Virus record (IMG/VR): IMGVR_UViG_3300021440_000130
Coordinates: 1 to 22,287 of that record
Length of the DNA stretch: 22,287 bases
Direction: 5' to 3' (one strand)
DNA from: a virus
The stretch's first letter is position 1. Every line of letters starts with the position of its first letter. The notes under the pieces were generated by a model, which saw only the letters and a list, made by a program, of their open reading frames with translations, made no database searches and was not told the origin of the DNA. This document shows positions 3,404 to 21,889 of this stretch, in pieces. Made by a program: the position numbers and the translations under genes.

Positions 3404-4372
3404 TTACTTCTGCAGCACGCCCTGAAGCGAGCGGTTGGAGGCGGTCATGTTGCCCGCCCAGCCGATCAGCTTCACGACTGCGTCTTGGTTGGTGTTCATG
3501 CGCTCGCCGCCCATGACGACCATGTTCCGCTCGCTGTGAGGGCGATAGAACAGGTAGTCGCTGTTCAGGAAGTACATGTGGTCAGCCGGGCAGCCACCGC
3601 CGACGCCGCCGTCCAGCACCACGTCGGCATCCATGTACTTCAGGTTGGTGAAGCCAGCCTGACCAAGGTTGTCGTTGGTGATGCGCTGGATCGCCTGCAG
3701 AGAGGCGAGGTACAGCAGCCAGTTGTTGTTATCGGTGATGATCAGGTCCGGGCGGTCGGTTCCACGAACAAGGCTCGTGTACATGATGCCCATCTCCGAC
3801 TGGATCGTGGTAGCCGACAGCGTCACGCCCGCGACAGAGCTGTCACGAGTGATGTTGCGCCAGAAGGTCCACGTGCCCTGATTGATACCGCCCACGATGC
3901 CCGAGGAGACGGTATCGGCGACGAGGCTCTGCAGACCACCGATTTCCTTGCCACCGTTGCCAGTGCCATCGGCGTAGCAGCCGAGGGAAATCTTGTTCAT
4001 CATGGTCTTCTCGGCCACGTCGATGCGGCTTTCCAGCAGGTCAAGGATTTTCTCCTTGCCGCTGTTCTGGAGCTGCTCCAGACCGCTGATGGTGACAGCG
4101 ACCGCAGCCTGCTTCCAGTCGAACTCCGCAGCCGTCATCACGTCCGTTGCGGCGATGTCGAGCGGATCGTAGCCCGAGTACCACATGAACGTGCTGTTCT
4201 CCTGATAGGCCAGCTCCTGCACGAGGGTCCGGCCACCGCTGGCGGGCTTGTTACGGCCACGCTGCTTCAGGCGATACAGGAGGGCATTGTTCTTGGTGAC
4301 GTTGTCAGCAAGCTTGCCCGTCCGGTTGCGGAGAGTGGTCGTGATGATTTCGCTCAGATTGGGCGATGCCAT
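3404..4372 (-). CDS. Major capsid protein
   Basis: A 322-residue protein that I call the main shell subunit, probably with the HK97 fold. Supporting features are the N-terminal helix (LSEIITTTLRNRTGKLAD), the RTLVQELAYQEN..F.WYSGYD segment (about residues 48-69), a long helix containing LEQLQNSGKEKILDLLESRI, and the C-terminal ERMNTNQDAVVKLIGWAGNM strand region typical of phage coat proteins. It follows the scaffold gene by 12 bases, and AAGGAG stands eight bases before the ATG. The length is normal for a coat protein. There is no separate protease or long N-terminal delta region, which fits scaffold-driven P22-style assembly. It is not close enough for me to name a reference phage. Confidence 0.85.
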   Translation of the reverse strand: MASPNLSEIITTTLRNRTGKLADNVTKNNALLYRLKQRGRNKPASGGRTLVQELAYQENSTFMWYSGYDPLDIAATDVMTAAEFDWKQAAVAVTISGLEQLQNSGKEKILDLLESRIDVAEKTMMNKISLGCYADGTGNGGKEIGGLQSLVADTVSSGIVGGINQGTWTFWRNITRDSSVAGVTLSATTIQSEMGIMYTSLVRGTDRPDLIITDNNNWLLYLASLQAIQRITNDNLGQAGFTNLKYMDADVVLDGGVGGGCPADHMYFLNSDYLFYRPHSERNMVVMGGERMNTNQDAVVKLIGWAGNMTASNRSLQGVLQK

Positions 4373-5779: not shown

Positions 5780-6940
5780 TCATAGTGCCATGGCCATTAC
5801 CACCATCAGCTCCTCCTCGCGAGCGGCTTCGAGTGCCATCTCGCGCTCTATCAGCGCCCAGCGCTCGGCGGCCTCGCGGGCCTGCCCCATGGCGATGCGC
5901 TCCTGCTGGTCGATGAGGCCCTGCAGGAAGGCCTGAAGGTCGAGCAGCTCGACCAGCGACTGGTCGAGGCCCCCCATGGGCACGACCGTCTCGGGCTTGG
6001 CGGCCTCGATCTTTTTGGCGACATTTGCAACCGCCTCAGAAGCCCGTACAGCGGCTTCCTTGCGCTTGGCGGGGGTAGTAGCGGGCACCTTGTCGAAGAG
6101 CCGTCTAGCCTCTTCCCTAGCCTCGCGAATGCCATCCCAGCGGGTATCCCCCTGTCGGTGAACCGCAGCACCGAAGCCGAAGGCCCCGGTGGCGGTCGAA
6201 GGCGGCGCTACCGGGGTGTAGACCAGCCCGGCGTCGGTGCCGGACATCACGTAGAAGCCGGGGCTGGCGAGCAGCTTGCGCGCACGGATCAGGCCGACGC
6301 TCTGCCCGGTCATGGCGTAGGAGCCCGGAGCTGCGGCGATCAGGCGGGACTTGAGGATGTTGGCGGACTGGCCCGTGAGCGCGTACGAGCCGACGCCTGC
6401 GGGAACCTTCCAGCCGCGCAGCACGCCAGCGCTCTGCCCGGTCATGGCGTAGGAGCCGACGCCTGCGGGCATCTTGCGGCTGTACACCAATCCAGCCGAC
6501 TGCCCGGTCATGGCGTAGGAGCCGACGCCTGCAGCGACCTTCCAGCCATGGATGACGCCAGCGGACGAACCACTGAGCGCGTACGAGCCGACGCCTGCGG
6601 GAACCTTCCAACCGCGCAGCACGCCAGCCGAGACGCCGTTGAAGCTGTACGAGCCAACGCCCGCTGCGACCTTCCAGCCGTGCAGGACACCTGCCGCCGA
6701 GCCCGTCATCGAGTACGAGCCGACGCCTGCAGCGACCTTCCATCCACGGATCAATCCGGCGGACTGGCCCGTGAGCGCATAGGAGCCGACGCCTGCGGGA
6801 ACCTTCCAGCCGTGCGCGATCCCGGCGACGGTGCCCGTCATCGAGTACGAGCCAGCGCCAGCCGCCAGCGTCTTGTTCACTGCTGTAGCGGCTGGCGATC
6901 CGGCTACGGCAAGTCTGCCGAGTGCGTCGAACCCAAGCAT
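5780..6940 (-). CDS. Protein of ten 22-residue repeats with a coiled-coil tail (386 aa)
   Basis: Residues 23-242 consist of ten 22-residue repeats with the core GSY(A/S)(L/M)TGQSAG flanked by GWKVPAGV or similar. The last two copies have drifted. The remainder (243-386) is charged and helical (REAREEARRLFDK; ERWALIEREMALEAAREEE), probably a coiled coil. Short G-S-Y-T-G repeats of this kind occur in phage proteins and probably form beta-solenoid or beta-hairpin rods. I infer a fibrous virion or host-contact component, but no family name can be defended. The gene ends 19 bases before the small Cys-motif gene and starts three bases after the stop of its upstream neighbour. Copy number could vary by recombination between repeats. 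Confidence 0.75.
   Translation of the reverse strand: MLGFDALGRLAVAGSPAATAVNKTLAAGAGSYSMTGTVAGIAHGWKVPAGVGSYALTGQSAGLIRGWKVAAGVGSYSMTGSAAGVLHGWKVAAGVGSYSFNGVSAGVLRGWKVPAGVGSYALSGSSAGVIHGWKVAAGVGSYAMTGQSAGLVYSRKMPAGVGSYAMTGQSAGVLRGWKVPAGVGSYALTGQSANILKSRLIAAAPGSYAMTGQSVGLIRARKLLASPGFYVMSGTDAGLVYTPVAPPSTATGAFGFGAAVHRQGDTRWDGIREAREEARRLFDKVPATTPAKRKEAAVRASEAVANVAKKIEAAKPETVVPMGGLDQSLVELLDLQAFLQGLIDQQERIAMGQAREAAERWALIEREMALEAAREEELMVVMAMAL
6215..6874 (-). repeat. Ten tandem 66-bp coding repeats
   Basis: Ten consecutive 66-bp units encode the 22-residue repeats of the 386-residue protein. The middle copies are close to identical in DNA as well as protein (for example the recurring GGAGCCGACGCCTGCGGGAA on the plus strand), while the outermost copies are diverged. 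Near-identity of the inner copies suggests expansion or gene conversion within the array. Confidence 0.9.
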
Positions 6941-9783: not shown

Positions 9784-12198
9784 TCAGTTCACCGCCGTTT
9801 GCGCCGTGTACTGACGACCATCGGGTGCTGTGATGACCTTCGGTGCCGTGAGCGCGGTTAGGAGTTGCTGGTTCGACGCGAGTACCTGCTCGTTCGACAT
9901 GGTGACGCTCTGCATGAGTTGGCCCAGCGTGGTCTGCAGCACCTGCGCCACGCCGTTCACCTGCTCGCCCGGCTGGCCGAGGAAGGCGTCCTGCTCCTCC
10001 GCCAGTATCTGGTCGCGCAGCTTCGCCTTGCCCGTCGAGAGGCCCAGCTCGCTCGTCGCCTGCGCCGTCCTGATCTGGTGGTCGGCCTGCTCGTTCTTGA
10101 TCTGCATGTCGAGCTGGTGGCTCTGCTGCTTGTGCTGAAGGTCGAGAGTGTTCGACGCCTGCTTGTGCTGCAGCTCGATCTCCTTCTCCTTCTTCTTCGC
10201 CTCCAGCAGCGCGGCGTTCGGGTCCGGCGGCTGCTGCTGCGGCTGCGACAGGCGATCCTGCACGGCCTTGAAGGCCTGCTCGATCACGTCTTCGAGCTGA
10301 CGCCCGGCGCGGAAGCCGCGAGCGGTGAACAGGATGGTCTCGCTGACCAGCGGTGCCAGCTCCGGCACCTGACCAAGGAGCGGCACGGCCTGCTGCATGA
10401 GGCCGCCGATGGCCGTGACGAACTCGGTGCGGCGCTGCTTCTCCGCGTCCTCGTCCGGCTGGATCGTGCTGTCCGTCTCGATCTCGATGCGGTAGCCGCG
10501 CATGTCGTCGTTCTTCAGCAGGGCGAAGGCGTCGTCCACCTTCTGCATCTCGGCCTGATAGGCCTGCTCCGCCTGCTGGTACTGCTGCATGGCGGCCTGC
10601 TGCTGCTGCATCGCCTGCTGGTACTGCTGCATGGCCTGCTGGTCGCGCTGCTGGTCGCCTGTCGGCTGCGGCGGCGGCATCTGCTGCTGCTGCGGCGGCG
10701 GAGGCGGCGGCTGCGGGCGCTCGACGTTGGTGACGGTGAGCAGGTACTCCGGCTCGTACTGTTCAGCGATCACCTCGCACACCATCCTCGTCAGGTCGCG
10801 AGCGAAGCGCACCAGCTCCTGCTGGCGATCCCTGATGCGAACACTGCCCCACTGGGCCTTGATCGACTGGGCTGTTGCGGTCTCGCCGCTCTCGGTCGCA
10901 CCGCGCAGGATGTCGCTGATGCCTGTGATCTGGTAGACGTCTTGGATGGCTTGGTTTCTGATCTCGATGCATGCGCGCAGGGTCTCGACCACGTCCTTGA
11001 TGGGAAGCCACACGATGGCGTTGCTGCCGCCACGCTCGGTGAACGCGGCCCAGCTCGCCACCGGGATCATTTGGCTCTCCGTCGCTGGCGACAGCGCCTT
11101 GGCCATGGCCTCGCTCACCTCGCCCTCGGCACCAGCCGGGTAGAAGCCGACGAGCTTGAGGCTGTCGATCAGGTTGGAGATGCGCGCCGTGAGGAGGTCG
11201 ATCTCCTCCGCCTGATCCTGATAGTACTTGTAGTCTGGCGTCGGGATCAGCGTGTTATTGGTCAGCGTGGCATAGACAGGCTTCGGGCAGGGGAAGAAGC
11301 CCTCGAAGTCGAGCAGCGGCTCGGCCTCCTCCAGCACGGCATTGGCCCCCTTCGCGACGAAGAAGACCTTCTCGTGGACCTTCGACCAGATTTCGTAAAC
11401 CGTCGCCTGCGCCTCCTGCGCATTGTCGAGCTTCGGGTCGCGAATGCCGTCACCACCGTCCGTGGACTGTGCCTTGTTGTCCATCGGCACGGACTTCCAT
11501 TTCGCGCCGAACCGCTTCTTGCCCTCCTCGTCGGTCATGTAGGCGATCTTCGCCACCCAGCCGACTTCCTCCCAGCGCCGGGCGGGCTGGTGCAGGAACT
11601 GGCGATAGTGGATGTAGTCCACGCACGTCTTGTGTTCCTTGATCGTCGGGGCCGTCGCCGCCATGGGCGATGCGGGCTGGCCGTCCGACAGCATGCCCTG
11701 CACGGGCTGGTCGTCGCTCTCCTGCGCCTCCGCAGGATCGTCCTCGCCCTCGATCTCCGCCTCGTAGCGCACCCACGCGGTGCCACGACCGGGCAGCAGC
11801 AAGTCGTCACGCACGGCGCGCAGGCAGTTGTCGAGACCCATGCGCTCGAACTCGAAGCTGGCGGCACGTTCGAGGATTTCCGCAGCGAGGCGGCCCACCG
11901 GGTCCTTGTCGCGATAGCGGCGCGACACCTGCGGCACAGGCGGGCGCGCGTAGACAGACGGCTTCAGCACCTCGGTGTTCGCCCACAGCATGGCGAACTT
12001 GCGCTTGCCATCGCTCTTGCTCTCCTGCTTCGCATAGAGCTTGTAGAGCTTGTCGGCCCGTTTCCAAAAGTCGCCGAAGAACTTCTCGGCCCGCTGGATT
12101 TCCTTCTTCCAGTAGTCCTGCATTTTGTCTACACTGTCGGCCCCTGCGCGCTTCTCGTTTTCGGGCTGCGCGTTGGCTGCGGCCATATTCAGAACCAT
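9784..12198 (-). CDS. Portal protein, P22-type
   Basis: An 804-residue protein forming the dodecameric ring at the head vertex through which DNA is packaged and ejected. The N-terminal pattern (WANTEVLKPSVYARPPVPQVSRRY, edges quoted) and the later ITGISDILRGATESGETATAQ, SIKAQWGSVRI and RDRQQELVRFARDLTRMVCE segments are typical of P22-type portals. The C-terminal part is a long Q-rich helical region (about 660-750) matching the barrel-like extension of that family. A Pro/Gln-rich low-complexity insert covers about residues 498-558. The length is somewhat above P22's portal. Start 12198 has AGGGGG upstream; an ATG four codons on is an alternative. The terminases lie upstream, with the large zincin protein and a plus-strand gene in between. 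Confidence 0.85.
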   Translation of the reverse strand: MVLNMAAANAQPENEKRAGADSVDKMQDYWKKEIQRAEKFFGDFWKRADKLYKLYAKQESKSDGKRKFAMLWANTEVLKPSVYARPPVPQVSRRYRDKDPVGRLAAEILERAASFEFERMGLDNCLRAVRDDLLLPGRGTAWVRYEAEIEGEDDPAEAQESDDQPVQGMLSDGQPASPMAATAPTIKEHKTCVDYIHYRQFLHQPARRWEEVGWVAKIAYMTDEEGKKRFGAKWKSVPMDNKAQSTDGGDGIRDPKLDNAQEAQATVYEIWSKVHEKVFFVAKGANAVLEEAEPLLDFEGFFPCPKPVYATLTNNTLIPTPDYKYYQDQAEEIDLLTARISNLIDSLKLVGFYPAGAEGEVSEAMAKALSPATESQMIPVASWAAFTERGGSNAIVWLPIKDVVETLRACIEIRNQAIQDVYQITGISDILRGATESGETATAQSIKAQWGSVRIRDRQQELVRFARDLTRMVCEVIAEQYEPEYLLTVTNVERPQPPPPPPQQQQMPPPQPTGDQQRDQQAMQQYQQAMQQQQAAMQQYQQAEQAYQAEMQKVDDAFALLKNDDMRGYRIEIETDSTIQPDEDAEKQRRTEFVTAIGGLMQQAVPLLGQVPELAPLVSETILFTARGFRAGRQLEDVIEQAFKAVQDRLSQPQQQPPDPNAALLEAKKKEKEIELQHKQASNTLDLQHKQQSHQLDMQIKNEQADHQIRTAQATSELGLSTGKAKLRDQILAEEQDAFLGQPGEQVNGVAQVLQTTLGQLMQSVTMSNEQVLASNQQLLTALTAPKVITAPDGRQYTAQTAVN
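10526..10710 (-). repeat. Pro/Gln low-complexity insert with a 42-bp tandem duplication
   Basis: This stretch encodes about residues 498-558 of the portal: six prolines, then Q-rich sequence with alternating Q, A, M and Y. Inside it a 24-base segment occurs at 10570-10593 and again at 10612-10635, exactly 42 bases (14 codons) apart. Each copy encodes the QQYQQA-type unit. It probably forms a flexible or helical insert that tolerates length change. Confidence 0.75.
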
Positions 12199-15400: not shown

Positions 15401-15757
15401 CTCCGCCACCTTCAGGCGTTTGCGCTCCATGGCCGAAGCCGGGCGCATCCTCTTCCGGTCGCCAGAACCCGGCTGGACGCCCGGCGCGAGGTCACCAGCG
15501 GCCTTCCGCTGGGCGGCGATAGGTCCGAGGCCCGTCGCGGTGTTGGCCGTCACGCGGCTTCCCATGGGGTCGTCCAGCGTGTGGCCGTAGAGCTTGATCT
15601 CCTTCTGCTGCTGCTCGTAGACGGCAGCGGCGTTGGCCATCTTGCGCTTCTCGTCCGCGAGCTGGGCGTCCTTGCGCTGCTGATCCCAGTAGGCGGGGTC
15701 GGCCTCCGGCATCGGGACGCGCGGGGCTGTGCCAAGGCCTGCGATGCGTGATGCCAT
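12371..15757 (-). CDS. Large virion-type protein with zincin (HEGQH) domain (1128 aa)
   Basis: A 1128-residue protein between large terminase and portal. Residues about 222-253 (GTPAEEIWQRTARDGKSGWW, then DGQWRWELPD) match a module I know from phage internal/minor virion proteins. It is followed by a metalloprotease-like motif LAHEGQHLVDYI at 353-364 (H355, E356, H359). A conserved SSENLASLTDKRL segment (E415) is a candidate third zinc ligand region. This arrangement resembles the large polyvalent-protein zincin domains. The C-terminus carries a hydrophobic stretch (GIIPAFAGAALLGG, 1102-1115). I chose ATG 15757 because it overlaps the terminase stop (TGATG); the ORF extends further upstream without support. 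I infer an ejected or internal protein that may cleave peptides. Regions 430-1100 are unassigned. Confidence 0.7.
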   Translation of the reverse strand: MASRIAGLGTAPRVPMPEADPAYWDQQRKDAQLADEKRKMANAAAVYEQQQKEIKLYGHTLDDPMGSRVTANTATGLGPIAAQRKAAGDLAPGVQPGSGDRKRMRPASAMERKRLKVAEAIDKPIQAVGKAIDYYGGPHVSDSLGRTGELVNNVAAATPGIGDAMQLGQSGSEYIDAWADNDKLAAWKAVGMGALGLGIFLPPGVKNAPMETLDEAKRLEKLGTPAEEIWQRTARDGKSGWWRAPDGQWRWELPDNESKITGAGSVYAADPRAMDKTLMPEKLPKLWKHDQLYEAQPEAMDAYASIANDGGGSGQFRSDIGPGGFVEAYGSPFNGGVDQFGRAVGEKNLRRILAHEGQHLVDYINDLPNGAMPGDDAFKFIQADDAARGLERPSFTQMGYGWSEPYRAYRRNSSENLASLTDKRLYMDMPTRVGQFPGAMMDYPADRQWIRDVDGSIRVPTGDIDLQTGDPTFRVLRGPQKGYKPRQAGSMEEAATPVAQNGPRRGRAPEASADELLQQAIDTPRKVSQRGGFVGAPPHISTPEAENALVADILTRLRAYKGQGTNFYDDFQNAIRNWTGNPTTAQKFATASGHTSNQMSPLPNTTHALKAMNQDAVGYPVKAGLYPNASGAKIADDFSTGRMSADPKTGQYTYHLLPEEFRPADFQDYAFGGERAVKPGRAVHDTWDKEATQFPRNPKNKQNAASDTEHLWMDRIYNKVVREARRDPELRGRLGTGSKTYERAQADLWDIERQKQEKFEVLPADKIMQENSALTQVAAIPGPSTGVDKALLNAPLSVKDQYTDQMMDAFSDGRGRNLPAASLGMTPPMEKGLGQWGDMMEPNRAVRYGVGTMGSGPDKVIDPASATAMGAVRDWNQIGLGQEGGAITVGRTDGATQATASLAPIGAPLKSYDDYERAFQAVKAHFGPEWFKSVVVQPGKNGEAVIKNIGDMPNKQFQQLAQKAGMDLSPGGTQIEPTTINKKGEQMFGPIVERDVGNDFRYVQFDQPGASPYVPDVFKQAPAFQNPDSYHRLFDDTRANPKLKGTFDRDIIPGLERVQAVSDRWEKDMGIPANTVIDRVRRIITEAGPSWPNAIDAAVKKGIIPAFAGAALLGGAAQSQFGNDGGVQ

Positions 15758-17208
15758 CAGATGCGCTCCCTGTGCGTGGGCTCGCGGAGCTTCTCCCAAG
15801 CCTCGTTCATGGTGATCTCGTAGACGGTGCGGGGCGGCTGCTCGGCGGGCTTCTTCTTCGGCACCCACGGGCGCGACATGCAGGCGTAGCGCAGCTCGTC
15901 CGCCGCGTGGTCCTCCTGCTTGGTGTCGAGGTCTTCCGGGCGGTCAGGGTCGTGCTGCAGGATCGGCAGGGTGCGGGTCAGCTCGGTGCAGGTGGAGAAG
16001 TTCACGAACATGGGGTGGTCTTCCTCCCCGATGATCCGGGCACGGACCATGTCCCAGCCGCCCATCGCGCCGCGAGCGCCCATGCGCCGATTGTCGCCGC
16101 GCTTGAACACCACACCAGCACGAGCGAAGCGTTCAGCAATAGATGGGCCGCCGTTCTCGCTGAAGGCGGCAGGGTCGATAACGCTGAATGCATACTTCTC
16201 ACCCCCCGACATCTCCTTGATGCGCTCCGACAATTGCTCCGTGGTCAGACGAAGTCCGACGTTCGGCTGTCCGGGCTTCATAGCATACAACTCGCGATAC
16301 CGCACTAGGCAGCCACGCCGGAGCCCGAACTCGTGCGCGTCATCCCCCGCGACGGCGTACCAGCCCATCGAGAACGGCGCGCCATAGCCCCAGTCGGCGG
16401 CCCTGAAGCGCAGCCAATCCTCCGGCACCGGGAACGGCTTGACCACGTTCAGGCTCGACCACGTGTCGAAGAACGCGCCCTCGACGATGTTCCAGTCGCC
16501 CAGCAGCCACGCCTTGATCAGGTTGTCGTTGCCCACCTGCTGCAGGGTGGCCACGTAGTCCGCGCCCAGATACTTGTTGTCGGTGATCAGGCTGGGGATG
16601 AAAATCCGTGTACGGTCGATCCGCTCGCGGGTGAAGGGATTGACGAAGGTCTCGGTGATCGGGTGGAAGCCCAGCGGTGCCGGGTCGATGTAGCGGGCCT
16701 TGACCCACTGGTGGCCGGGGCCGCCGGGGTTGCAGGTCAGGACCATGCGGCAGGGCACGCCAGCGCCGGATCGCAGGGTGGCCATGAGCTTGAAGATCGG
16801 GGTGGGCGAGGGGAAGTTGCCGCACTCCTCGACGTAGACGCGAGTGTAGCTGTGACCCTGATACCCCTCGGCGTCGGCGTCACGCTCCAAGTATGCAAAG
16901 CGCAGGCGGGCTCCGTTGGGAAAGGTCCACATGGACTTCTGGTCGTTGAAAGAAGCTCCGAGCGGCGTGTAGAGGGCCTTGGATCGCTCAATGGTCTCCA
17001 CCAGCTCGGTGCGCTTGCGTCGGACCATGAGACCGATGGCGTCTGCCCCGTACTCAGCAGCGTGGCTGGCCCACTCCCCCAGCACACCGTCAGTCTTCCC
17101 TCCACCTCGGGCTCCGCCGTAGCAGACCTCGGCCACCGGGCAGGTGAGCAGGGCCGTCTGGGGGCCGGGCTGAGGGCTCCAGACGGTGTGGATGGGCTCC
17201 TCCCCCAT
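15757..17208 (-). CDS. terL: Terminase large subunit
   Basis: A 483-residue packaging motor: an N-terminal ATPase and a C-terminal nuclease. The Walker A loop GGARGGGKT is at residues 31-39. Walker B RVYVEE is at 123-128, with E127/E128 as the catalytic candidates. The coupling motif LTCNPGG is around 157-163. The RNase H-like nuclease has acidic residues D272 (ADWGYG), D345 (SVIDPAAF) and D433/D437 (EDHAADELRYA). The length is typical. It starts one base after the small-subunit stop with only a distant GAGG upstream, and its stop overlaps the zincin gene. All key motifs look intact. It should act with the small subunit and portal to fill the head. Confidence 0.93.
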   Translation of the reverse strand: MGEEPIHTVWSPQPGPQTALLTCPVAEVCYGGARGGGKTDGVLGEWASHAAEYGADAIGLMVRRKRTELVETIERSKALYTPLGASFNDQKSMWTFPNGARLRFAYLERDADAEGYQGHSYTRVYVEECGNFPSPTPIFKLMATLRSGAGVPCRMVLTCNPGGPGHQWVKARYIDPAPLGFHPITETFVNPFTRERIDRTRIFIPSLITDNKYLGADYVATLQQVGNDNLIKAWLLGDWNIVEGAFFDTWSSLNVVKPFPVPEDWLRFRAADWGYGAPFSMGWYAVAGDDAHEFGLRRGCLVRYRELYAMKPGQPNVGLRLTTEQLSERIKEMSGGEKYAFSVIDPAAFSENGGPSIAERFARAGVVFKRGDNRRMGARGAMGGWDMVRARIIGEEDHPMFVNFSTCTELTRTLPILQHDPDRPEDLDTKQEDHAADELRYACMSRPWVPKKKPAEQPPRTVYEITMNEAWEKLREPTHRERI

Positions 17209-17209
17209 G

Positions 17210-17605
17210 TCACTGCTTGACCTCGTCCGCCTTCAGGGTGATGGCCGCCTTGGGGGCGTATTCCCGCAGCCAGTCCTCGGTGGACTTGGAGGGCTCGGGG
17301 GCTCTCAGCACAAACGTCTTGGTTTCCTCTGACGTTACGGCAATGGATTGTGGTGTTGGCAGGAGCTTGTCGAGGAGGGCGCGAGCTGCCTGTATCTGCT
17401 CCTTGGACATGGCGGGCTTTCGGGTGCCGTCTGCCATCTCGACCATCAGGCGTGGGGTGTCGTTGGTGGTGTCCATCACCAGTGTGCCGAGGGCGAAGTC
17501 CTGCAGGCGGGTGACGAGCTGGCCGCCTTGGATGCGGGAGCGCAGGCGCTCGATTGACGTGGGGTCCAGCTTGGGCCTGAGAACGGCTGGGGTGGGGCGC
17601 GCCAT
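17210..17605 (-). CDS. terS: Terminase small subunit
   Basis: This 131-residue protein precedes terL by one base, the standard terS position. The N-terminal basic half (RPKLDPTSIERLRSRIQGGQL) could bind DNA. The centre is helical (KEQIQAARALLDKLLP), and the C-terminal part is acidic. I prefer ATG 17605 (weak GGACGG upstream) because the earlier ATG at 17644 falls in the loop of an inverted repeat. With it the protein would be 144 residues. No HTH signature is clear enough to list, so the call is mainly from position. It would recognise the packaging site and load TerL. Confidence 0.72.
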   Translation of the reverse strand: MARPTPAVLRPKLDPTSIERLRSRIQGGQLVTRLQDFALGTLVMDTTNDTPRLMVEMADGTRKPAMSKEQIQAARALLDKLLPTPQSIAVTSEETKTFVLRAPEPSKSTEDWLREYAPKAAITLKADEVKQ

Positions 17606-17627
17606 GGGTGTATCCGTCCGTTTGATT

Positions 17628-17662
17628 GTCCGTGCCCGGAGCATATCAGTCAGGGCACGGAC
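17628..17662. repeat. 10-bp perfect inverted repeat before terS
   Basis: GTCCGTGCCC (17628-17637) and its exact complement GGGCACGGAC (17653-17662) flank a 15-base loop. It lies between the stop of the 75-residue gene and the preferred terS start. No U-tract follows it on the minus strand. It could be an RNA hairpin in the terS leader, or a binding site such as a packaging sequence or operator. Confidence 0.6.
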
Positions 17663-17665
17663 GAT

Positions 17666-17893
17666 CTAGGGGGTGTTCTTCAGCGCACGGATGGCGGTGC
17701 GCTTTGCTGCCGTGGCTTCCATCCATCCTTTTAGAAACATCGCCTGTTCTTCCATGCTGCCTGTGAACTTAAGGGGCGTCGCCTTTACCAGTGCCGCTTC
17801 CTCCAGCGCGAGGTCGATGTAATCCCAGACCGACACATCGGAATGTGGCAGTAGCGCTTCGACCTTTCCCACCAGCGCGGCGCGGTCAGCCAT
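17666..17893 (-). CDS. Small accessory protein, array type A, copy 2 (75 aa)
   Basis: The product begins MADRAALVGKVEALLPHSDV, then VWDYIDLALEEAAL, and ends AIRALKNTP. It is a paralogue of the 61-residue protein at 18894-19079: a 50-bp segment (17793-17842) is identical to 18976-19025. The middle (FTGSMEEQAMFLKGWME) is an insertion not present in copy 1. ATG 17893 sits inside the end of the preceding gene, whose AAGGAG codons serve as its ribosome site. No known function. Confidence 0.68.
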   Translation of the reverse strand: MADRAALVGKVEALLPHSDVSVWDYIDLALEEAALVKATPLKFTGSMEEQAMFLKGWMEATAAKRTAIRALKNTP

Positions 17894-18164
17894 TGGCCTT
17901 CTCCTTCAGCGCGCGGATGGCGGCGTCAGCTTCGTCAATGTAGACCAGTGAACCGTCAGACGTTTGCGTCAGGCTGTCAAATATCTCGCGGTCCCAGCGA
18001 GGCACCGAGTAGAGAGCCGTGAGAGCTTCCTCCAGCACCTCGGCGCGGATGAGGTCGATGGCGGCTTCCATTGCGGGCCGCATCTTCCCAGTGGTGTCGT
18101 AGCGCAAACAGTAGGCGGCTAATGCTTTCTCCACCAGCGCGGCGCGGTTATCTATGCTGGGCAT
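17886..18164 (-). CDS. Small accessory protein, array type B, copy 2 (92 aa)
   Basis: The product begins MPSIDNRAALVEKAL and contains AIDLIRAEVLEEAL (about residues 35-48), ending AIRALKEKANG. It is a paralogue of the 95-residue protein at 19072-19359, sharing a 39-base segment with two mismatches (18025-18063 against 19199-19237). The start lies in the tail of the zinc-motif gene after AAAGGA. The last codons (KEKANG) contain AAGGAG, which serves the following gene. Predicted mostly helical; function unknown. Confidence 0.68.
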   Translation of the reverse strand: MPSIDNRAALVEKALAAYCLRYDTTGKMRPAMEAAIDLIRAEVLEEALTALYSVPRWDREIFDSLTQTSDGSLVYIDEADAAIRALKEKANG

Positions 18165-18508
18165 TCGTGCGGTCCTTTGCTCTCATCAGCGCCACAGTAA
18201 TAGCACCAGTGGTCTAGCGGGCAATGGCGGCCCGACTTGTGCGGCTCGCCATCACGGTTCTGCGGGCATTCCGGCCAGCTACAGTCACCATCGCGGGAGG
18301 CGTGGCAGCGGTCATCCAGCGCGGCGCGGTCAGCGGCCTTCTTCGCACACGGCCAGCACTGAAATGACCGCTTATCGCCAGTAAACTCCTTTTCGCAGTT
18401 GGAGCAGCGGCACATATAGCTTCCGGGCGCATATCCTCCCAGCGCGGCGTGTGGTTGGTCGGCCTTGAGGACGTCATCAGGCCATTTGGCGCGGCGGTCA
18501 GCGGTCAT
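18152..18508 (-). CDS. Cys/His-rich protein with two zinc-type clusters (118 aa)
   Basis: Residues 33-54 hold CRCSNC with a partner CWPC (C33, C35, C38, C51, C54), a zinc-ribbon-like pair. A second set (C68, C76, C81, C96, H100, C102, C105, C116) surrounds GRHCPLDHWCYYCG. The start at 18508 overlaps the membrane peptide's stop (ATGA). It lies inside the duplicated array but has no counterpart in unit 1, so it was probably inserted or lost. It may bind DNA, RNA or protein. Confidence 0.68.
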   Translation of the reverse strand: MTADRRAKWPDDVLKADQPHAALGGYAPGSYMCRCSNCEKEFTGDKRSFQCWPCAKKAADRAALDDRCHASRDGDCSWPECPQNRDGEPHKSGRHCPLDHWCYYCGADESKGPHECPA

Positions 18509-18603
18509 GGCTGCTTCACCAGCGCAACGATCAGCCAGAAGCCGATGCCGCCAAGCATCAGCACGGGCCAGAGATAGTCGTATACGAATGTTTCAGCGGT
18601 CAT
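18505..18603 (-). CDS. One-helix membrane peptide (32 aa)
   Basis: MTAETFVYDYLWPVLMLGGI, then GFWLIVALVKQP, gives one hydrophobic helix (about residues 10-29) with a charged end. The ATG follows AGGAG by seven bases within the tail of the type C gene, which it overlaps by 11 bases, and its stop overlaps the zinc-motif gene. Its good ribosome site and precise coupling support expression. It might be a small membrane-acting regulator or holin-like peptide; nothing proves this. Confidence 0.55.
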   Translation of the reverse strand: MTAETFVYDYLWPVLMLGGIGFWLIVALVKQP

Positions 18604-18862
18604 TCTGCTTCTCCTGTGCGAGTGCTTCGTGAAGTTTCTTGCTCCACGGGTTCGGCTTGTCTGGCCCAAACATATATGAATATGCGTCAAGCAATTCTGT
18701 TGCAGCCACCCGCAGCCGTTCGTTGTCGGCGCGGAGGGTGGTGATTTCAGACAACGCATCTTCGCCATCTTTGATCGTGCAAAAAATGCAGTAGTTTTCG
18801 TTGTCGGCAAACGGCTTGGACACAATTACTGCGTGGCGCAGCCTCTCTACAATGTCACTCAT
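18593..18862 (-). CDS. Ead/Ea22-like accessory protein, array type C, copy 2 (89 aa)
   Basis: The product begins MSDIVERLRHAVIV, has a CIFC pair (25-28), a coiled segment ITTLRADNERLR (40-51), and ends EALAQEKQNDR. It is a shorter relative of the 211-residue protein at 19480-20115: both begin M(S/T)DIVERLR with the same DNA (18836-18856 region against 20090-20109). They also share a 21-base C-terminal segment (18605-18625 against 19486-19506). I start at 18862 (CAGGAG upstream). An in-frame ATG at 18901 would add MDEDRAALAQESP, which looks like a remnant. The type resembles phage Ead/Ea22-like proteins, whose role is unclear. Confidence 0.62.
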   Translation of the reverse strand: MSDIVERLRHAVIVSKPFADNENYCIFCTIKDGEDALSEITTLRADNERLRVAATELLDAYSYMFGPDKPNPWSKKLHEALAQEKQNDR

Positions 18863-18893
18863 TGGGCTCTCCTGTGCGAGTGCGGCGCGGTCC

Positions 18894-19079
18894 TCATCCA
18901 TTGGTCTTCTCCTTCAGGGCGCGGATGGCGGCGGCTATAGGTTCTCCCGCTGCATTCCATCCTTGCGCCACCCTCGCCGCTTCCTCCAGCGCGAGGTCGA
19001 TGTAATCCCAGACCGACACATCGGACTGGGGCAAAAGTTTCTCAACCTTCTCCACCAGCGCGGCGCGGCGGTCATCCAT
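18894..19079 (-). CDS. Small accessory protein, array type A, copy 1 (61 aa)
   Basis: The product begins MDDRRAALVEKVEKLLPQSD, then VSVWDYIDLALEEAARVAQG, and ends AIRALKEKTNG. It shares an identical 50-bp segment with copy 2 (18976-19025 against 17793-17842). It also shares a 45-bp identical segment with its neighbour's end (18894-18938 against 19072-19116). ATG 19079 lies within the end of the type B gene, seven bases after AAGGAG. The centre would be an amphipathic helix. Function unknown. Confidence 0.68.
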   Translation of the reverse strand: MDDRRAALVEKVEKLLPQSDVSVWDYIDLALEEAARVAQGWNAAGEPIAAAIRALKEKTNG

Positions 19080-19359
19080 TGGTCTTCTCCTTCAGGGCGC
19101 GGATGGCGGCGGCTATTTCTTTGGCCGCGCACTCATAGCCGCTGTTGGTGTCACTCGACCATTCAGGCGATCCGCACCTGTATTCCGCCACCTTCGCCGC
19201 TTCCTCCAGCACCTCGTTGCGGATGAGGTCGATGGCGTCGGTGGCTTGGGCGTGGTATCCCGCTGCACAGCATGTATCTCCGTCAGGATGTTGGCAGGGG
19301 CTTTCGCAACACATAATCTCGGCCACCCTCTCCACCAGCGCGGCGCGGTCAGCGGTCAT
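19072..19359 (-). CDS. Cys-rich accessory protein, array type B, copy 1 (95 aa)
   Basis: The product begins MTADRAALVERVAEIMCCE and carries a Cys/His cluster (CCESPCQHPDGDTCC, residues 17-31). The AIDLIRNEVLEEAAKVAEY helix follows, then two further Cys, and the end AIRALKEKTNG. The AIDLIR helix and both ends match copy 2 (17886-18164), but the Cys cluster is not found there. Start 19359 has AAGGAG six bases upstream, inside the tail of the 44-residue gene. A zinc-binding N-terminal module is possible. Confidence 0.68.
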   Translation of the reverse strand: MTADRAALVERVAEIMCCESPCQHPDGDTCCAAGYHAQATDAIDLIRNEVLEEAAKVAEYRCGSPEWSSDTNSGYECAAKEIAAAIRALKEKTNG

Positions 19360-20518: not shown

Positions 20519-20809
20519 TCAAATCTTCCGGTTCAGGGCTTCGGAGACGCGCCCCAAGTTCACGCCAAAATGAGCCGCGATGTTCTGCATGCTCTCCTTC
20601 GGGTGCCCCTTGGCGTGCGCCCTGATCTCGCGCGCCATGCGCGGGGTCAGCTCCTTCGATGTCACCGGAGCCTTCCGCACGGGCTTCTCCCGGTAGAGGC
20701 ATTCGCGAATGATGATGCGAAGCTGCTGCGCCGCATTGGGGTAGCGCCTCGCCTCCAGTAGTTCCGCCAGCTCGTAGAGCCGCACACGCGCTTTCGGGAT
20801 GTCCGACAT
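20519..20809 (-). CDS. Small helix-turn-helix DNA-binding protein (96 aa)
   Basis: A 96-residue protein with a basic linker (REKPVRKAPVT) and a C-terminal helix-turn-helix: SMQNIAAHFGVNLGRVSEAL at about 73-92, with the expected helix, glycine turn and recognition helix. The N-terminal 40 residues are helical (LYELAELLEARRYPNAAQQL). The ATG follows the upstream stop directly. It probably regulates transcription, perhaps of this operon or at the palindromes at 22.1 kb, but that is inference. Confidence 0.7.
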   Translation of the reverse strand: MSDIPKARVRLYELAELLEARRYPNAAQQLRIIIRECLYREKPVRKAPVTSKELTPRMAREIRAHAKGHPKESMQNIAAHFGVNLGRVSEALNRKI

Positions 20810-21208
20810 TTACTGCCCCGTCCACGTCAGGGCCTTCACGGCCCACATGGTTGCGTCCATCTGTCGGCGGATGGCCTCCTCCACGATCATGCGGTGGTTG
20901 GCGTCGAGGTAGCGCTGGCCGTCCTTCTCGGTGGTGCGCAGGGGGAGGTTGGCGAGCTGGTCGATGCATTTCGAACCGCGCAGCTTCATCAGCGTGACCT
21001 TGAAGTCGCCGCTCGGATTGAAGCTGTAGCCAACCAAAATCTCCCCTTGCGTAGGGGGCAGCTTGGGTTCCTCCGTGGACGGAGGAATGTTCGCGGCACC
21101 CAGATCGGGCGGCACGAAGTCGAGGACGTTGTCGGGGCTCGCGTTCACAGCCACCGGGCCACGCGCGATGTCGTCGGCAGTAGAGTTCTCGGGCGGTTCT
21201 CTCGTCAT
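20810..21208 (-). CDS. Acb2/Tad1-like cyclic-nucleotide sponge with N-terminal extension (132 aa)
   Basis: The C-terminal half has the pattern of the Acb2/Tad1 hairpin family: VGYSFNPSGDFKV (59-71) with a following helix, then a second helix ending DATMWAVKALTW (118-129). MWAVKA is a hallmark of the family. These phage proteins bind and hide signalling nucleotides of CBASS (cyclic di/trinucleotides) or Thoeris (cyclic ADP-ribose isomers). Acb2 itself is about 94 residues. Here an extra 55 residues, proline-rich and probably disordered, precede the hairpin. Y61 and K75 are candidates for ligand contacts by position. ATG 21208 has AGGA eight bases upstream. A longer frame to 21346 is leucine/arginine shadow. 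Family call is by pattern, not alignment. Confidence 0.72.
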   Translation of the reverse strand: MTREPPENSTADDIARGPVAVNASPDNVLDFVPPDLGAANIPPSTEEPKLPPTQGEILVGYSFNPSGDFKVTLMKLRGSKCIDQLANLPLRTTEKDGQRYLDANHRMIVEEAIRRQMDATMWAVKALTWTGQ

Positions 21209-21226
21209 GCTGGGGTTCCTGAAATG

Positions 21227-21252
21227 AAAAAAGCCGAGGCCTAAGCCCCGGC
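21227..21252 (-). terminator. Intrinsic terminator upstream of the Acb2-like gene
   Basis: On the minus strand an 8-bp stem (GCCGGGGC pairing with GCCTCGGC, one G-T pair, loop TTAG) is followed by six T. It lies only 18 bases before the Acb2-like start. A second, weaker hairpin (GGGGCCT with AGGCTCC) occurs upstream in the same gap. This looks like a true terminator or an attenuator. Confidence 0.75.
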
Positions 21253-21358
21253 CCAAGTTTAGGGAGGTCGTCGAACAACTGCGGGAGGATCGCCCCCTCA
21301 GAAGCAGAAGGAGCCTATCACAGGCCCCCTCTTCCGTCATCGACATTCAGTGCGCGGA

Positions 21359-21853
21359 CTATGCTCCATGGCCGGAGATCATCGTCTTCGCGGCGTGTTC
21401 CTTCGCGCGTACCGCAGCAGCCTCGGGGCTGTAGTCCACCTCCGCCTCGCTGATGCCGCGCTCGGTGAGCAGCAGCTCGCGGTCGAGGAGGGCGATGGCA
21501 TTCACGGGCTTCACGTTGCGCAGCGCCTTGATCAGGCGGTCGCGCCAGTCGTTCGGCCAGATCGCCTCCATGTGGCGGGCGAGGGCGCGCATGCCGTAGA
21601 TCGGCACGATGGGGTCGAGCGTCGGGGTGCCGTCCTTGCCGCCCATGGCCCAGCGGGCGCAGAGCGTGCCGAGGTTGTCCGAGTAGGTCGAGAGGCGGAC
21701 ATAGGCGGGCTGGTAGTTGAGGATGTTGTCGATGGCGAGCTGCTTCAGGTCGCTGTCGTAGCCCTTCTGGCCAGACGCTGCGATCTCGTTCTCGACGCAC
21801 ATCTTGGCCATGGACGAGAGGTCCGTGCCGGGTGCGTGGATGATGACAGTCAT
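21359..21853 (-). CDS. Hypothetical protein of 164 aa
   Basis: The product begins MTVIIHAPGTDLSSMAKMCV and contains mostly helical segments (LKQLAIDNILNYQPAYVRL; MRALARHMEAIWPNDWRDRL), ending in a charged part (SPEAAAVRAKEHAAKTM). I chose ATG 21853 because GGAG stands about eight bases before it. An in-frame ATG at 21865 is a weaker alternative, and the longer frame upstream lacks support. It is the first gene after a candidate promoter, so it may be expressed at high level. I do not recognise a family. Confidence 0.7.
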   Translation of the reverse strand: MTVIIHAPGTDLSSMAKMCVENEIAASGQKGYDSDLKQLAIDNILNYQPAYVRLSTYSDNLGTLCARWAMGGKDGTPTLDPIVPIYGMRALARHMEAIWPNDWRDRLIKALRNVKPVNAIALLDRELLLTERGISEAEVDYSPEAAAVRAKEHAAKTMISGHGA

Positions 21854-21889
21854 GGGGGTCTCCATGCGGGCGGGATTGCCCGACAGCAC

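Follow-up and report, generated by a model that had tools for sequence, protein, structure and literature searches.

The minus-strand gene at positions 20810..21208 of the window, the 22,287-nt stretch of viral DNA analyzed here, encodes a 132-residue protein that almost certainly belongs to the Acb2/Tad1 hairpin family, as judged from homology and predicted fold. It is best explained, with good probability, as a divergent Acb2-type nucleotide sponge in which a core that would form hexamers carries an additional N-terminal tail. The open reading frame (132 codons plus stop, called from the frame itself, its ribosome-binding site and its profile score) is confirmed as the initial annotation had described it, with FNPSG at residues 63-67 and MWAVKA at residues 121-126. 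The ribosome-binding site AGGAA (21216..21220, minus strand) is read directly from the sequence, 7 nt ahead of the ATG at 21208. The protein divides into a hairpin core of residues 53-132 (20813..21052, minus strand), delimited by profile match, AlphaFold2 and BFVD, and a proline-rich tail of residues 1-52 (21053..21208, minus strand), predicted to be unstructured and described by AlphaFold2, composition and codon-position GC.

The family assignment, made earlier from the two motifs, is borne out through intermediates that match PF24729 or phrog_717, together with the predicted two-helix hairpin. The window protein itself finds no direct match in Pfam, PHROGs, NCBIfam, PADLOC or the PDB sequences, and a single-sequence scan of viral contigs with it returned no relative. 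The initial annotation had proposed a search with the Acb2/Tad1 profile and had named a missing match as evidence against the family; the direct hmmscan indeed gave none, and it is the PF24729 matches of the relatives that speak for the assignment. With tblastn, the window protein matches EcP1, Aaphi23, S1249, Pmp11, PSTCR8lys and PS3 over residues 47-129 (best E 9e-7). Four of these relatives were scanned: all match PF24729 (Acb2_Tad1_hairpin), two with scores exceeding its 27-bit cut-off, and all match phrog_717, PS3 weakly. Aaphi23 ORF38 (17.0) and PS3 (23.9) score under the PF24729 cut-off, so this profile misses clear relatives. T4 Vs.4 reaches 71 bits with PF24729, which spans both Acb2 and Tad1, and also matches phrog_717; its discoverers equate the group of Vs.4 homologues with PHROG 717 (PMC10097602). 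Two alignment-based scans of viral contigs were made, from which the best 80 of 482 and the best 80 of 82 relatives were kept. A profile built from 116 unique relatives, the window excluded, gives the window protein 70.7 bits over residues 53-130; none of 1,000 shuffled versions exceeds 4.5 bits, which shows that the match is not due to chance. Individually, 31 members of a 43-member alignment match PF24729. Profile A4 found only the seed genome among 398 genomes of one bacterial phylum, and PF24729 matched nowhere in four genomes that hold relatives, nor in the controls. A branch of Acb2 sponges that is partly missed by curated profiles is now placed.

The AlphaFold2 model, computed for monomers only on a 38-member alignment, predicts in the core a short helix (residues 54-59) followed by two long antiparallel helices (69-86 and 103-128) with a beta hairpin (92-101) between them, all at pLDDT above 90; modelled alone, the core has a mean pLDDT of 96.3. 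The two-helix hairpin that was anticipated for this part of the protein is therefore present in the monomer model of residues 53-132. As its top two structure matches, BFVD returns proteins with the Acb2/Tad1 hairpin (E 5.7e-4 and 1.6e-3, probability 1.00). Foldseek against the PDB at E ≤ 0.001 gave no match at all, a solved Acb2 included. In the second-look structure list 7uq2_D stands first (Z 6.1, 68 residues, 3.6 Å), tied with unrelated helical hairpins, and the list obtained with the core-alone model holds no Acb2 chain.

In T4 Vs.4, cGAMP is contacted by Y8, H11, K23, R79 and F82, and the S74N mutation interferes with its binding (PMC10097602). In PF24729 coordinates, F63 of the window protein falls on Y8, the residue that stacks on the base, K125 on R79, and T128, adjoined by W129, on F82. 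K75 was paired with K23 by eye across a loop that is three residues shorter, and H11 is without a counterpart, Ser66 standing at its place. F63, K75, M121, V124 and K125 are identical in all 116 relatives and kept in the window protein; F63 and the stretch M121-K125 are partly favoured by the search patterns themselves, whereas K75 is not. At position 120 the window protein has Thr compared to Gln in 116/116 relatives, and T4 has Ser74. Since this site is otherwise invariant and corresponds to S74 of T4, the range of ligands may differ from that of the nearest relatives, as far as sequence can suggest. We consider it probable that the protein is a sponge for cyclic oligonucleotides acting against CBASS-type signalling.

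In the mechanism that we propose, residues 53-132 would form the helical-hairpin protomer, for which the homology is demonstrated and the fold predicted. By analogy with T4 Vs.4 and PaMx33 Acb2, the protomers would assemble into a hexamer that captures cyclic di- and trinucleotides but leaves them intact, and such sequestration in the infected cell would keep CBASS effectors switched off. Six tails would then project from each hexamer; most likely the tail, predicted to be disordered, binds a partner from phage or host, or influences stability. If it does bind a partner, the sponge would do more than passively absorb nucleotides.

The protein shares with T4 Acb2/Vs.4 (PDB 7UQ2; phrog_717; PF24729) the helical hairpin, the small size of a phage protein and the correspondence of Y8, K23 and R79 to F63, K75 and K125. 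It differs in its 52-residue tail, in the predicted beta hairpin between the long helices, and in having T120 and T128-W129 where T4 has S74 and F82; pairwise BLAST between the two proteins gives no match. The PaMx33-type Acb2 (p26; PDB 8H2J, 8IXZ and others) is placed in the same family by a T4-based search and lacks a tail, and a single-sequence search detects no similarity between it and the window protein. In Acb2, cyclic dinucleotides and trinucleotides bind in pockets that are independent of each other (PMC12043709). The closest named sequences, EcP1 gp26, Aaphi23 ORF38, Pmp11_0039, PSTCR8lys and PS3 Stuart_43, are 32-59% identical over the core and share the invariant residues. In contrast to the window protein, the short FNPSG/AQMWAVKA sponges are about 65-90 residues long, lack a long tail and have Gln120; they are annotated as hypothetical, and we found no experimental test of them. 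Acb4 (PF13876) is also a nucleotide sponge but belongs to another Pfam family, which has no match in the window protein; extensions also occur on some Acb4 homologs (PMC11722364).

The initial annotation had named the immune nucleotides of both CBASS and Thoeris as targets. The former are the most probable ligands, and the latter appear weak candidates. Tad1 binds gcADPR. Its C-terminal helical hairpin belongs to PF24729 as well, and a Tad1-like sponge blocking Thoeris, with the extra half serving as the Tad1 N-terminal domain, would fit a family that includes Tad1 and an extension that lies at the same end as in Tad1. The N-terminal part of Tad1 is a four-stranded beta sheet (PMC12043709), whereas residues 1-52 of the window protein are modelled as coil at a pLDDT near 65 without any strand, and the relatives are short proteins of Acb2 size. 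By the model, the architecture is not that of Tad1; the absence of its N-terminal beta domain makes Thoeris binding less likely, and we regard a Tad1-like sponge as very improbable.

The extra N-terminal half noticed in the initial annotation is indeed unusual, at about 52 residues compared to the 55 given there: 62 residues precede FNP in the window protein, compared to 11-30 in most relatives. Proline makes up 11 of the 52 residues. In the AlphaFold2 model, residues 1-40 are all coil with block means of pLDDT of about 62-68. At third codon positions, the front half of the gene has a GC of 0.78, like that of the neighbouring genes (0.73-0.92), and therefore the extension is most likely translated rather than the product of a mis-set start. 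Translation might additionally begin at an internal TTG, codon 58, in front of which stands AAGGGGAG, so that long and short subunits would mix. The GGGGAG 3 nt ahead of this codon and the classical size of the product (75 aa) are in its favour, but this spacing is tight, TTG initiates weakly, and the product would lack G55, present in 111 of the 116 relatives; we think a second, short form improbable.

Residues 27-36 of the tail (21101..21130, minus strand) form the motif NVLDFVPPDL, which reads NVLSFCPPGL in a sister phage. The syntenic ortholog there, L234:1495-1809(-) on contig G455 (IMG/VR 3300042691_019595), is a protein of 105 residues with AAGGAG ahead of its start. It is 34% identical to the window sponge over 106 residues, compared to 84% for the head protein and 74% for terL between the two phages. 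The two tails have S..NVL.F.PP.L in common (P about 0.0003 on shuffling either tail), and about 4.8 million residues, obtained by translating the fetched loci in all six frames, contain the pattern NVLxFxPPxL in no other protein; the conservation of the motif is that of two sequences. A third copy was found neither with an alignment of the window and sister proteins as query nor with the sister alone. A weak tail match in contig G488 lies antisense to a gene for a tail protein and was discarded as fortuitous; a second weak match, at 33929-34081 of G455, lies within a 989-aa frame. The gene preceding the sponge gene (21359..21856, minus strand, 165 aa) has orthologs of about 39% identity in the sister contigs G454 and G455 and none in named phages. 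In the sister phage, a 140-aa ORF between the preceding gene and the sponge gene was compared with a 128-aa ORF of another sister, with which it does not match.

Conservation of the motif in a syntenic ortholog lends support to the idea, raised earlier, that the tail tethers or targets the sponge. It also bears on the possibility that the sponge is active and the tail neutral, a captured upstream start whose disordered residues are idle. Low complexity, richness in proline and lack of predicted structure would fit such a tail, and so would the sponge of locus L185 (IMG/VR 3300037883_000018), which has an Acb2-type core and an independent, clearly proline-rich N-terminal tail of roughly 40 residues (Pro 14/40). 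The two tails are unrelated in sequence: homology between them was rejected, as they do not align (shuffle P 0.90). However, NVLxFxPPxL is kept in an ortholog of only 34% overall identity and, within the translated loci, is confined to these two proteins, which speaks against an idle tail; we hold a neutral tail possible but somewhat unlikely. The apparent 56-residue extensions of four further loci (L196, L200, L218 and L223) were set aside, since each has a closer ATG; in three of the four the upstream part resembles a translated tRNA end. In L196 (match 4001-4210), the frame ahead of the sponge reads AKDYERAAKVREVIK, which is UVR-motif-like and may stem from a gene fusion or from a start further upstream.

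The core of the sister ortholog has lost FNPSG and MWAVKA but keeps K75, an Arg at position 125, D83 and W129, and it has no Acb2/Tad1 match in Pfam. With the window gene it has in common its synteny, the tail motif and a GC leader hairpin, and the tail motif thus outlives the usual pocket signature in this long-tailed form of sponge. The sister protein is possibly an inactivated or re-aimed sponge. Such loss of the pocket has a precedent, as the Acb2 of T2 is probably mutated in its dinucleotide site and Panoptes punishes phages that bear sponges (PMC12657218). It could be argued that in this phage lineage the hairpin has given up nucleotide binding altogether and the protein now serves as an adaptor or partner-binder whose tail carries the function, which would explain why the sister keeps the tail motif without FNPSG and MWAVKA and why both members of the lineage deviate from the Gln120 found in all 116 relatives. 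The window protein, though, retains F63, N64, P65, K75, M121, V124, K125 and T128, all otherwise invariant or nearly so, and the signature is lost in the sister only; a pure adaptor is thus an unlikely reading of the window protein.

A terminator-like hairpin, consisting of a G+C-rich stem of 10 pairs followed by a T run (21227..21254, minus strand; stem 21254-21231, TTTT after it), ranks first among the terminator-like matches of the scanned window, in agreement with the strong terminator described earlier just before the sponge gene. Only 22 nt, with the ribosome-binding site in between, separate this hairpin from the ATG, so that a promoter between hairpin and gene is hardly possible; a scan covering the sigma-70 type found no such promoter on the strand of the sponge gene. 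A 10-pair GC hairpin is likewise present in the leader of the sister gene; its T run is shorter, and it is absent from the output of the terminator scan. The leader hairpin may play a role in read-through or antitermination, or as part of the mRNA leader. The initial annotation had taken the position after the terminator as suited to early supply, which finds no support: there is hardly room for a promoter, no sigma-70-like site was found, and related sponges tend to lie beside terminase genes. The sponge gene lies 3.2 kb upstream of the presumed small terminase subunit gene, terS (17210..17644), on the same strand, and with related sponges clustering near terminase its position is no argument for early expression. 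On the minus strand, terS adjoins the large subunit gene, terL (15757..17208; phrog_2, 9e-36), and its homologs adjoin TerL in the sister phages.

Among the 19 contigs of relatives with a detectable phrog_2 terminase, the sponge lies within 2.5 kb of it in 12 (L007, L015, L020, L038, L046, L066, L075, L079, L171, L173, L185 and L193), compared to 2.8 expected under uniform placement. The corresponding P is about 1e-5, and the true value is weaker because several loci are close kin. In these 12 the sponges lie on either side of TerL, which is on the opposite strand in two. The L185 sponge gene (3881-4219) overlaps the terminase gene, its ATG sharing bases with the TGA (TGATG), a further difference from the window gene. 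Staphylococcal CBASS is triggered by terS-terL RNA (PMC10686824), which makes the sponge-terminase neighbourhood worth testing and no more; the clustering renders a link between the positions of CBASS trigger and antidote testable. More speculatively, and with rather low probability, NVLxFxPPxL could be a partner-binding peptide displayed six-fold and kept while the pocket diversifies, coupling sequestration to a second target, and sponges might adjoin terminase because its transcripts can trigger CBASS, the antidote being co-transcribed with the trigger.

The window has a G+C content of 64% and carries its genes on the minus strand. They include those for the portal (9784-12198; phrog_12082), the major head protein (3404-4372; phrog_9953) and a tail protein (1290-1991; phrog_6013), and the sponge gene is followed by one for a helix-turn-helix-like protein of 96 residues (20519..20809; phrog_23243). 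By portal protein, the closest named phages, at about 41-43% identity, have Bradyrhizobium and Rhizobium as hosts. The minus-strand frame at 5780-6940 encodes 386 residues in which a unit of the AGVGSYAMTGQSAGVLRGWKVP type recurs about a dozen times, perhaps a repetitive structural or surface protein. Between terS and the sponge gene, the minus strand at 17666-19359 holds small related ORFs, among them 17666-17893, 17886-18164, 18894-19079 and 19072-19359, which share the pattern DRAALVEKVE...ALKEK and look like tandem duplications.
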